A DNA stretch of 43,742 nt from Bacteroidota bacterium (GTDB lineage Bacteria > Bacteroidota > Bacteroidia > Chitinophagales > Saprospiraceae): contig JAHEAR010000030.1 in the NCBI GenBank assembly GCA_024642665.1, forward strand, positions 1 to 43,742, written 5' to 3'. A model generated the notes under the pieces. That model was not told where the DNA came from. It worked only from the letters and a program-made list of their open reading frames with translations, and ran no database searches. Each line of letters starts with the position of its first letter. Within the stretch, counting starts at the first letter, position 1. This document shows positions 41,130 to 43,742 of this stretch, one piece after another. A program made the position numbers and the translations under genes.

Positions 41130-41867
41130 ATGCTATATAATAAATTGAAGCGTTCAGATAACCAAAAAACAACCATGGTGGCTTTTCTAAAAAAGAAAAT
41201 CGCTTTTATTAAAAGTAAATATGATGCATTTCAATCGAATACCGTATTGATTCATATTGGAAAGTGTGGCGGATCGACTATCCGTGAGGAATTTAAAATA
41301 CATGGTATAAAATTTATTGAAAAGCATCTTACACCGGTTAAATTCAATCCGTCCTTTGAATACATTATAGTGATCAGAAATCCAATTGCAAGATTTATTT
41401 CAGCCTTCAACTGGCGATACAAATTAGTAGTAGAAGATCAGACACAAAAGAATCGTTTTAAAGGAGAAAAACAATTGCTTGAGCAATTCAAAAATGCAAA
41501 TGACTTAGCTGAAGCCCTGTATAATGATCAAGGAATTCCGGCCATTGACTTTCAGCAAAAGGAATTTTACATTCATCATCTGAAGGAAGATATATACTAT
41601 TACCTCGGACAATTTCTTTCCGTCTGTAACCCTGACCAAATAAAAGCAGTAATTGCTACTGAAACATTAAAGGAGGATCTGAATGACTATTTTAATATTA
41701 ATGCCACTATACACGAAAAGGACAATGGTCGCAGCGATGATGAATACTTGTCTGAACGGGCTTATCAAAACCTGAGGAAATATTTTGTCAAAGATTATAA
41801 TACCATAAACCAGTTATATAAAATGGGACTGATTTCCGAAAACAAGTATGCATTGCTTTCTAAATAA
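41130..41867 (+). CDS. Sulfotransferase family 2-like protein
   Basis: 245 residues; Met16 (41175) is an alternative start. The P-loop-like nucleotide site is LIHIGKCGGSTIREEF near residues 40-55, and the second binding motif IIVIRNPIARFISAFNWRYK is near 85-105, as in the Sulfotransfer_2 group (chondroitin, dermatan and HNK-1 type enzymes). The remainder is short, AT-rich and Asn/Lys-rich. The GKCGGST and IRNPIxRFxSAF motifs are intact, so activity is plausible, with a sugar as likely acceptor. It stands alone on the plus strand, diverging from the GT4 gene and converging with the regulator at 41963. Confidence 0.8.
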   Translation: MLYNKLKRSDNQKTTMVAFLKKKIAFIKSKYDAFQSNTVLIHIGKCGGSTIREEFKIHGIKFIEKHLTPVKFNPSFEYIIVIRNPIARFISAFNWRYKLVVEDQTQKNRFKGEKQLLEQFKNANDLAEALYNDQGIPAIDFQQKEFYIHHLKEDIYYYLGQFLSVCNPDQIKAVIATETLKEDLNDYFNINATIHEKDNGRSDDEYLSERAYQNLRKYFVKDYNTINQLYKMGLISENKYALLSK

Positions 41868-41962: not shown

Positions 41963-42853
41963 TTAAATATCCACCACCAGCTTATACCCCACGCCACGAA
42001 TATTCAGAATCTTTACTTTTGCGTCAAACTCAAGCTTTTTTCTCAATTTCGAAATGAACACATCGAGCGTTCTTCCCACATAATCCCCATCATCACCCCA
42101 AACCTTTTTCAGAATAAACTCACGCTCCACTGTCGTGTTCGCATCATTATAAAGCAAAAGAAGCAATTCTGCTTCCTTCCCGGTAAGTTCAATCGTTTGA
42201 TCCTGAATCAAAAGCGCTGTATTCCTTTTGTCAAAATGATAATTACCCAGGACAATTAAGTTGGGATCTATAGGACTCTTTCTTCTTTTCTTCCAAATAA
42301 AAAACAGACCACCGCCAAACAGCAGGACGAATAAGGCAATCATAGAACTATGAGAACCGGATTTTGCAAATAACCCATTGGATAAAACAACTACCGATTC
42401 CGCCTTTGCCTGACCACCTTCCAGAGACGTAAATAAAAGGCTGTAACAGGAATTGGGGAGACTTCGCGATCTGCACGGTGCCATATCGGATTGATTCAAC
42501 GCACTCAATTCAAAGCTATAGACCACCTCCATGGAAGTGCATTCCTCTACCTCCACGATATAACTACTGGCAATGCTCGACTCACTCACTACTCGTTTGA
42601 CAATGGTGACCAAATCATCAGGTACAATCGCTAACTCAGACTCAAATTGAATCCTGTACTGCCCTTCATCTTCAATGATCGGCAAGACGCGGGAAGTACT
42701 ATCCCCTGCGCTAAGCAAGACCTGATGACCAATCATCCGCAGCGTGACCTCCATATGCTTCTCATTTAGAGCATCTTGTCCCTGACTATTGTAAGGCATC
42801 AAAAGAAGGCCGGCGAAGGCCAATACATATATCTGGATCCGATGTAGCGACAT
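41963..42853 (-). CDS. Transmembrane one-component regulator, OmpR-type winged helix
   Basis: 296 residues. A signal peptide or anchor (about 1-25, cleavage near SQGQ) is followed by about 140 residues likely to be periplasmic, with three cysteines (Cys104, Cys127 and Cys137, roughly) that could form a disulfide. One membrane helix lies near 170-187 (MIALFVLLFGGGLFFIW), then a basic stop-transfer KKRRK. The C-terminal 95 residues are an OmpR/PhoB winged helix: ELTGKEAELLLLLYNDANTTV, REFILKKVWGDDGDYVGRTLDVFISKLRKKL and ILNIRGVGYKLVV. There is no receiver or kinase domain. The topology (sensor first, DNA-binding end last) is the reverse of ToxR/CadC. It probably regulates the divergent gene at 42989. 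Confidence 0.85.
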   Translation of the reverse strand: MSLHRIQIYVLAFAGLLLMPYNSQGQDALNEKHMEVTLRMIGHQVLLSAGDSTSRVLPIIEDEGQYRIQFESELAIVPDDLVTIVKRVVSESSIASSYIVEVEECTSMEVVYSFELSALNQSDMAPCRSRSLPNSCYSLLFTSLEGGQAKAESVVVLSNGLFAKSGSHSSMIALFVLLFGGGLFFIWKKRRKSPIDPNLIVLGNYHFDKRNTALLIQDQTIELTGKEAELLLLLYNDANTTVEREFILKKVWGDDGDYVGRTLDVFISKLRKKLEFDAKVKILNIRGVGYKLVVDI

Positions 42854-42857
42854 TCAA

Positions 42858-42865
42858 CAAAGCTA
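42858..42865 (-). promoter_or_regulatory. -7 promoter element, leaderless spacing
   Basis: Minus-strand TAGCTTTG (exact TAnnTTTG), then TTGA, then ATG (42853). It is the fourth case in the window with a four-base gap to the start codon. Confidence 0.5.
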
Positions 42866-42950
42866 TTTGAAACTTAGACAATTAGGGTTGTTTTACACTA
42901 CTTTAACATCAATTTACAATTCATAAACCTACTCCGGTGGCAATGCCCTA

Positions 42951-42958
42951 TACATTTG
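42951..42958 (+). promoter_or_regulatory. -7 promoter element for the TonB-C-like gene
   Basis: TACATTTG, an exact TAnnTTTG, 30 bases before ATG 42989. With the element at 42858 it gives back-to-back promoters about 85 bases apart, well placed for control by the membrane regulator. Confidence 0.5.
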
Positions 42959-42988
42959 AAAGAAATTATTTCACTTAAAACATTAGCC

Positions 42989-43742
42989 ATGAAAAAGAGT
43001 ATTTTAATTGTTTGGGCTGTAATCACCACCTTTAGCTTAACCGCCTTTTGCTTTATCAATTGGAACCATGAAAACAAATTATGTCTCACATTACCATCCT
43101 ATGGTACCACAAATAAGGCCAATACAATGATTGGCACAGCCATTGGAAACATGATAGACATCAATTTTGACTACGCGGTGGGTACACGATATGCACCTAT
43201 TACAAAAGGTGAGGTGGATCGGGCTACATCAGTCATTGATTTTCTACCCGCTGACCATGTCCCACAAATTGTGTCATTCAATGAAGTCAGCGTATTCATT
43301 ATGGATCATGAGAAATTATCTGAAACACTTGAAACTGGCAATGGCGCAACCCTGACTTCCGCTCAGCTTGGTCTGTTGAAATCATGCGATTATTCCACAA
43401 ATTTTCTGATCAGGGCAGAGTACATTCAGAAGAATATGGTGACCGGAGAGTTTGAGTCTAGTTTCTGCAACCCTCGCAGGACTATTGTCCCGGAAAAGCA
43501 AGCAGCGTACCTCCCCGGAAATGAGGCGCTCCTGGATTACCTGAAAGAGAACAATAAGGAAAATATCAACCTTTTGGACAATGAGAAACTACAAGCTGCT
43601 AAGCTCTATTTTACGGTCAATAAAATGGGAAATATTTCCAATATCTATTTGGACAAAACATCAGGTTATCCAATGATAGATAATTATATGATGGAATTAA
43701 TTAAAAATGCCCCGGGACAATGGGAGGTCGCTGAAAATGCCC
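42989..43742 (+). CDS. Exported protein with TonB-C-like domain (cut by right edge)
   Basis: 251 codons are visible from ATG 42989; the 3' end lies beyond the window. The N-terminus MKKSILIVWAVITTFSLTAF is a signal peptide or membrane anchor. Residues 30-165 form an unrecognised domain with several cysteines (near 32, 138 and 164). From about residue 175 the sequence follows the TonB C-terminal domain pattern: YLPGNEALLDYLKEN, AKLYFTVNKMGNISNIYLDK, SGYPMIDNYMMELIKNAPG and QWEVAEN. It lacks the Pro-rich linker of classical TonB in the visible part. It diverges from the transmembrane OmpR-type regulator across 135 bases, suggesting a regulator-target pair. Its role may be in envelope sensing or protein interaction rather than transport. 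Confidence 0.75.
   Translation, partial: MKKSILIVWAVITTFSLTAFCFINWNHENKLCLTLPSYGTTNKANTMIGTAIGNMIDINFDYAVGTRYAPITKGEVDRATSVIDFLPADHVPQIVSFNEVSVFIMDHEKLSETLETGNGATLTSAQLGLLKSCDYSTNFLIRAEYIQKNMVTGEFESSFCNPRRTIVPEKQAAYLPGNEALLDYLKENNKENINLLDNEKLQAAKLYFTVNKMGNISNIYLDKTSGYPMIDNYMMELIKNAPGQWEVAENA

Follow-up and report, generated by a model that had tools for sequence, protein, structure and literature searches.

Introduction

Regulators of the ToxR family are defined, in an excerpt of one published account (PMC5936718), by an N-terminal cytoplasmic winged helix and a C-terminal periplasmic sensor. In the ToxR/ToxS and VtrA/VtrC systems, described as co-component systems in an excerpt of another (PMC9214523), the regulator and its partner are encoded in one operon. 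The locus analysed here lies at the end of the window, i.e., the whole stretch of 43,742 nt under analysis, which is an entire contig (G000:C12) of a 3.7-Mb genome of a Bacteroidota bacterium. It encodes a regulator that shares with ToxR and CadC a single polypeptide with one membrane helix, a periplasmic sensor, an OmpR-type winged helix and no receiver, but here the sensor is N-terminal with an export signal and the winged helix is C-terminal. Judged by its domain order, the protein does not belong to the ToxR family, and it may work like a reversed ToxR.

As in ToxR/ToxS and VtrA/VtrC, a membrane regulator stands beside an exported protein; here, however, the two genes are divergent, an arrangement shared by 40 of the 80 loci of the nearest homologues, so that by operon form the pair is not a co-component cassette. 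The partner in VtrA/VtrC is lipocalin-like; the best fold matches in the present case are domain D4 of PorM and the TonB C-terminal domain, as judged from a model, and other families replace this neighbour elsewhere. With the OmpR/PhoB response regulators, of which RprY is the closest, the regulator has in common the winged helix and tandem direct repeats spaced by 10–11 bp as the likely binding site, but an exported sensor and a membrane helix take the place of their receiver; lacking that domain, it is not a response regulator. It thus appears to be a back-to-front variant of the one-component membrane regulator, with a seemingly undescribed sensor domain.

In the open-licence literature, no description of this regulator type, its operator or its regulon was found, and to our knowledge little is known about envelope regulation in Bacteroidota beyond sigma/anti-sigma and hybrid two-component systems. 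The reading that we prefer, and consider probable from the sequence comparisons below, is that a regulator with a periplasmic sensor activates the divergent TonB-like gene, tunes its own expression and runs a small regulon of exported proteins via a TGTAAA operator.

Architecture and conservation of the regulator

Export signal, sensor, membrane helix and, at the C-terminus, an OmpR-type winged helix follow one another in the regulator, as located below.

41963..42853, minus strand: one-polypeptide membrane regulator, 296 aa (open reading frame, Pfam, model, alignment)
42776..42853, minus strand: putative N-terminal export signal, about residues 1–26 (hydrophobic segment; cleavage site by eye)
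42416..42772, minus strand: sensor domain, residues 28–146, with Cys 105, 127 and 136 (searches, model, alignment)
42293..42349, minus strand: membrane helix, residues 169–187 (alignment; helix 168–191 in the model)
41978..42199, minus strand: winged helix-turn-helix domain Trans_reg_C, residues 219–292 (Pfam; fold match)

Trans_reg_C (E 5e-20) is the single Pfam match of the regulator at E up to 10, and no receiver or kinase domain was matched at this threshold. The hydrophobic segment 169–187 is followed by KKRRK. Among 79 aligned regulators (window included), this second hydrophobic segment is present in all 79 and an N-terminal one in 75, and lysine and arginine are richer after than before the second segment in 78, suggesting that the sensor lies outside and the winged helix inside. 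The sensor cysteines are retained in 77 (C105), 79 (C127) and 75 (C136) of the 79 sequences. The original prediction had named an exported sensor part with three cysteines, a single membrane helix and a winged helix of the OmpR type at the C-terminus, with no receiver or kinase and in the reverse of the ToxR/CadC order; the reading frame, the Pfam search and the alignment bear out this description, with the sensor at 28–146 and the winged helix at 219–292 of 296 residues.

In an AlphaFold2 model, the ten-residue mean scores reach 91–98 for sensor residues 31–120 and 71 for residues 121–130, and 89–96 for the winged helix apart from one block at 73, while the linker at 151–170 is weak (49). The winged helix matches the DNA-binding domains of SaeR (Z 15.4), CadC (Z 15.3) and ToxR (Z 14.3), and its closest NCBIfam relative is RprY (E 6e-28), whose model is matched at positions 130–228 of 234 alone and with 97.8 bits vs. 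a cut-off of 370.

For the sensor, the copy in the window has no Pfam match, a Pfam scan of 19 sensor sequences gave no family in more than one of them, and a sensor profile run against PDB sequences returned nothing convincing (best E 0.41). A fold search with the whole regulator model returned a list filled by winged helices. The listed sensor matches in 395 genomes fall in open frames of 276–333 aa, apart from one weak match in a 362-aa frame, so that no protein as long as a histidine kinase was seen with the domain in these genomes. A single-protein scan of genome contigs confirmed no relative, and in a search of 37 plasmid records at least 80% of the query was nowhere covered, the five rows shown being winged-helix matches. 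Next to the regulator, the gene at 41130–41867 looks sulfotransferase-like by eye.

The divergent TonB-like protein

On the other side of the shared gap lies the following gene.

42989..43742, plus strand: exported TonB-C-like protein, 269 aa in all (open reading frame, contig C18 overlap, Pfam, fold)

The gene starts with ATG at 42989 and runs off the contig end; contig C18, which overlaps exactly over 121 nt, completes the frame with the last 18 codons, and the protein ends in GC, i.e., with a final cysteine. It is composed of an N-terminal hydrophobic segment, a beta-sandwich resembling PorM D4 and a TonB C-terminal domain. The truncated copy in the window matches the TonB models weakly and below cut-off (TonB_2, E 0.015; TonB_C, E 0.11). 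Among 12 members of the family scanned at E up to 1, TonB_C matches 11, the best with E 1.2e-5; a full-length member scores 20.8 bits vs. the cut-off of 24.6, and the two members with scores shown both lie below the curated TonB_C cut-off.

A fold model of the relative in locus L105 has a mean pLDDT of 89, with an N-terminal helix and low confidence at residues 26–53. Its beta-sandwich (68–168) resembles PorM D4 with Z 8.3 (rmsd 2.9 over 88 residues, 10% identity) and its C-terminal part resembles TonB of the FoxA complex with Z 8.2 (rmsd 3.6 over 88 residues), values near 8 being, by the fold tool's own remark, within reach of unrelated folds. The PorM and TonB rows head the list, and the TonB part has sequence backing as well. 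Lipocalins are not among the matches listed, an absence that excludes nothing. The likeness to D4 of the type IX secretion motor protein PorM/GldM thus concerns the fold of the middle domain, but identity is low, Z is near the level of unrelated folds and no other part of PorM was seen.

With TonB itself, the protein shares the C-terminal domain (weak sequence match and fold); however, where TonB has a Pro-rich linker, this family has the D4-like beta-sandwich, and a final cysteine ends 30 of the 39 complete TonB-like divergent neighbours. The copy in the window has 5 prolines in residues 26–165 and no Pro-x run, and the mean proline fraction of the family is 0.044 (maximum 0.079, n=40). Both a divergent exported neighbour with a TonB-C-like domain and the lack of a visible Pro-rich linker had been foreseen from the window alone, and the 11 TonB_C matches, the fold and the proline counts agree. 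The final cysteine is absent in 24 of 29 complete divergent neighbours of other kinds, and a link between the partner's final cysteine and the sensor cysteines was discarded as unsupported on this ground.

The genome of the window contains a second TonB-like paralogue (L295:6803-7492, contig C43), directly upstream of which no exact operator is found; a TGTAAA/TATAAA repeat run precedes an HTH gene 3.5 kb away. Interrupted-looking TonB-like genes stand beside the regulator in L297:2892-3699 (G411), as two overlapping frames, and in L075:2473-3270 (G001), with a stop codon inside the match.

Conserved pairing and replacement of the neighbour

The regulator was searched for in 100 genomes, namely that of the window and 99 relatives, and a close full-length copy (E below 1e-50) was found in 12 of the relatives. 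The TonB-like gene is directly divergent in 10 of these 12 (G001, G011, G014, G030, G033, G037, G045, G050, G055 and G069). The divergent neighbour is an S41/TPR-class gene in G039 (contig of L158) and a YGGWYC lipoprotein gene in G068 (contig of L160). Among named contigs, the comparison took the best 80 of at least 520 confirmed regulator homologues, so that the shares hold for the closest homologues of the regulator; the contig titles name Flavobacteriales, Saprospiraceae, Chitinophagales and other Bacteroidota. Within this set, a TonB-like gene lies divergent within 600 nt of 40 of the 80 regulators. The conserved pairing that had been proposed is therefore found, and the lack of co-occurrence, named beforehand as refuting, is not.

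With the window included (n=81), the divergent neighbours are TonB-like proteins (41), YGGWYC lipoproteins (10), beta-propeller (Reg_prop) lipoproteins (9), S41/TPR-class proteins (5) and others (6), with none in 10, where near-copies among the loci (L103/L106, L164/L169, L137/L139 and L150/L167) keep the counts from being independent. A TonB-like protein as the sole neighbour was accordingly rejected, a different protein being present in 30 of 81. On the regulator tree, a quick one with many forks unresolved, the TonB label changes 9 times vs. a shuffled mean of 27.3, and the four main neighbour types together change 11 times. The neighbour type thus seems to be stable within clades and to have been replaced more than once. 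Outside the divergent arrangement, a TonB-like gene was seen downstream of the regulator in tandem (L120:5977-7797, Maribellus) and in convergent orientation (L126:260-2032, Xanthovirga).

The simplest alternative is that an ordinary regulator stands by chance beside an unrelated exported gene. Many Bacteroidota proteins do resemble the TonB-like profile to some degree, and at E up to 0.001 it is matched in 331 of 395 genomes; however, 40 of the 80 nearest loci and 10 of 12 regulator-bearing relatives show the divergent pair, and together with the shared operator described below this leaves the explanation a negligible probability, and it was rejected.

The candidate operator and the back-to-back promoters

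Comparison of the upstream regions and a promoter scan located three elements in the gap between the genes.

42892..42918, minus strand: candidate operator, TGTAAA / TGTTAA / TGTAAA, 10 and 11 bp apart (upstream-region comparison)
42858..42865, minus strand: -7 box of the regulator, TAGCTTTG, 4 nt before the start codon (promoter scan)
42951..42958, plus strand: -7 box of the TonB-like gene, TACATTTG, 32 nt from the operator (promoter scan)

The tandem-repeat operator had been missed in the original prediction. Its repeats in the window lie on the minus strand at 42913–42918, 42903–42908 and 42892–42897, the middle one (TGTTAA) being off consensus, which counts against it. Upstream regions of 70 nt or more were compared, 76 in all (67 divergent gaps and 9 stretches without a divergent neighbour). 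TGTAAA-n4-TGTAAA occurs exactly in 62 of the 76 and within one mismatch in 74, vs. 0.04% and 0.87%, respectively, of 2280 dinucleotide shuffles, and a third, looser repeat follows 11 bp beyond. The exact form is found irrespective of the neighbour, i.e., in 32 of 40 regions with a TonB-like gene (window included), 23 of 27 with another gene and 7 of 9 with none. Its distance to the regulator start is 65/66 nt in 54 of 74 regions and 76/77 nt in 14. Winged helices of the OmpR/PhoB type bind head-to-tail on direct repeats, and a tandem spacing of 10–11 bp suits a DNA-binding domain of this type.

The predicted back-to-back promoters are also present, with a -7 box for each gene. In 61 of the 76 regions (window included), the regulator start codon is preceded at exactly 4 nt by a TAnnTTTG box, and in 67 of the 76 the box falls within 8 nt, vs. 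0.46 of 76 in shuffles. Of 55 regulator-adjacent gaps, 44 have a -7 box on the neighbour side at 31 or 32 nt from the operator, where shuffles give 0.78. According to an excerpt of PMC6847099, the -7 box of Flavobacterium johnsoniae has its last base at -5. Combined with a box 4 nt before the start codon, this position implies that the regulator mRNA should begin at the AUG; a leaderless mRNA is thus predicted as a conserved feature of the regulator. In F. psychrophilum, an excerpt of PMC9723704 reports 5.5% of the mRNAs examined as leaderless, and a conserved leaderless regulator mRNA would stand out in a phylum where, on the part of the literature cited here, such mRNAs are reported to be rare.

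Relative to the TonB-like promoter, the operator covers about -45 to -71, and relative to the promoter of the regulator itself about -39 to -65. This position in the shared gap makes it most likely that the regulator activates the TonB-like gene and tunes itself. The opposite sign is conceivable, in which the regulator represses the divergent gene and itself until a cue relieves the repression, and the operator does also abut the -33 region of the regulator's own promoter. However, a fixed spacing of 31/32 nt from the -7 box puts the operator on the upstream side of the -33 region in the TonB-like promoter and in most distant targets. Activators usually bind at such a place, and repression is considered unlikely.

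Distant operators and association with the regulator

The strict operator pattern, TGTAAAWTRRTGTAAA, occurs in 10 of the 12 regulator-bearing relatives vs. none of 12 regulator-lacking ones, the latter a selection out of the 99 relatives. Among 395 Bacteroidia genomes, several of the same genus and thus not independent counts, the pattern is present in 24 of 37 with a close regulator vs. 29 of 358 without (p 6e-15), and a reversed-pattern control shows no such link (1/37 vs. 20/358). Genomes with a weaker sensor were counted as lacking the regulator, the operator-bearing ones among them being G158, in which the weaker regulator adjoins a TonB-like gene, G287, G298, G417 and G475. Conversely, the strict operator is absent in 13 of the 37; five genomes without it were viewed, and a looser form was found in four (L297, L298, L300 and L301) and none in the fifth (L299).

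These figures bear on the possibility that the TGTAAA repeats belong to another OmpR-family protein, e.g., RprY, which is the best match of the winged helix (E 6e-28). A winged-helix match is present in 100 of 100 genomes, yet the strict operator is found in none of the 12 regulator-lacking relatives, and in the 395 genomes its presence tracks this particular regulator; an owner of the RprY kind is thus very improbable.

Because the 24 of 37 reflect mostly the site beside the regulator gene, evidence for control of other genes comes from the distant sites alone. Of 19 such strict sites in regulator-bearing genomes, 15 are followed on the same oriented side by a gene of a target family, as defined from the genes beside the same regulator family, vs. 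1 of 18 control sites (p 7e-6), the latter being 18 of about 51 sites in genomes outside the 37, with L293 and L294 sharing a genome that has 20 copies and L288 and L289 sharing another. The 15 targets comprise TonB-like proteins (5), YGGWYC lipoproteins (4), beta-propeller lipoproteins (4) and S41/TPR-class proteins (2); of the last two, that of L209 has no S41 match, being a serine hydrolase of the beta-lactamase family that carries TPR repeats, and that of L275 bears the class label alone. A -7 box at exactly 31/32 nt accompanies 13 of the 19 distant sites vs. 1 of the 18 controls (p 1e-4). In L213, the site falls inside the target ORF if this is called from the first possible start. The single control match, a TonB-like gene in L241 (G461), comes from an assembly of 91% completeness, where the regulator may be absent. 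The distant sites without a target family are L276, L278, L285 (inside a gene) and L174; L278 precedes an exported-looking amidohydrolase, possibly a new target.

The genome of the window has two distant strict sites. The one on contig C28 (L173) precedes a YGGWYC lipoprotein, a type of neighbour found at 10 of the best 80 regulator loci, and the one on contig C43 (L174) has an HTH gene after it and matches neither the spacing nor any target family. An SRPBCC label for the YGGWYC lipoprotein was dropped, the C28 copy having no Pfam match. Genome G211 has 20 copies of TGTAAAWTRRTGTAAA and no sensor match; the surroundings of L293 and L294 are near-identical, suggesting that the G211 copies are probably a repeated element.

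Proposed mechanism and role of the neighbour

In the proposed mechanism, the N-terminus of the regulator would be exported, placing the small alpha/beta sensor with its conserved cysteines in the periplasm and the C-terminal OmpR-type winged helix at the inner face of the membrane. A periplasmic cue would alter the dimer or oligomer state of the regulator, and the winged helices would then bind head-to-tail on the tandem TGTAAA repeats spaced by 10–11 bp. Distant operator copies would recruit a small regulon of exported proteins, here including the C28 YGGWYC lipoprotein. What is read from sequence is the architecture, the operator and its association with the regulator, the families of the targets and the constant spacing to the promoter, and from these we infer DNA binding, oligomerisation, a signal, and activation over repression. 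Given the conserved cysteines, a redox or folding cue is possible.

The original prediction left it open whether the TonB-like protein is target, ligand or co-sensor. A different possibility from the above is that it is an obligate co-sensor or ligand, which binds the sensor in the periplasm and relays the signal, as in ToxS–ToxR and VtrC–VtrA. Such a role would fit the adjacency that is stable within clades (9 changes vs. a shuffled mean of 27.3), the exported appearance of both proteins with conserved cysteines on both, and the strong genome co-occurrence, a full-type TonB-like gene being present in 20 of 37 regulator-bearing genomes vs. 12 of 358 others (p 1e-15). However, the genes are divergent rather than co-transcribed, and in 30 of 81 loci another protein (10 YGGWYC, 9 beta-propeller, 5 S41/TPR class and 6 other) takes the divergent place while the operator is unchanged. 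Moreover, 17 of the 37 regulator-bearing genomes show no full-type TonB-like gene, a soft figure in that the cut-offs (122 bits for the sensor and 130 bits for the full-type TonB-like gene) were set after viewing the lists, at most 11 sensor and 6 TonB-like candidates were scored per genome, and in at least one of the 17 (G307) a TonB-like frame of lower score adjoins the regulator. An obligate co-sensor is thus unlikely.

That the neighbour changes while the operator stays suggests that regulated genes move in and out of this slot and that the neighbours are targets first. The same operator and -7 spacing before unrelated exported families, whether close to the regulator or distant, favour the target option, and membership of the regulon describes the TonB-like protein better than the part of an obligate co-sensor, with a feedback role possible. 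The further idea of a compact envelope-sensing module of reversed-ToxR order gains support, as does that of conserved pairing, as far as sequence can tell. Much more speculatively, and with little likelihood in our estimate, the sensor might read the outer-membrane energy-coupling or redox-folding state throughout Bacteroidota; the PorM/TonB-CTD chimera would then touch the outer-membrane machinery and report back, perhaps via the cysteines, and the other regulon members would sense the same fault in other ways or help to repair it.

On the preferred reading, in which the TonB-like protein is a target, this one-protein circuit comes with a clear candidate operator, a small regulon proposed on the basis of sequence and a transcript predicted to be leaderless. 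Several unnamed exported families have a common operator and hence probably a common stress or signal, making them one functional group. The circuit occurs in genera for which isolate genomes exist, namely Algibacter, Ulvibacterium, Muriicola, Flavobacterium, Crocinitomix and Flavilitoribacter, and an unstudied envelope-sensing circuit of many Bacteroidota is thus open to laboratory testing.

More distant regulators

More distant regulators of the same layout (NLALR...GRSLDVF type) are found with other neighbours in L087, L089, L090 and L091, and short exported-looking genes adjoin the regulators in L087, L089 and L091.
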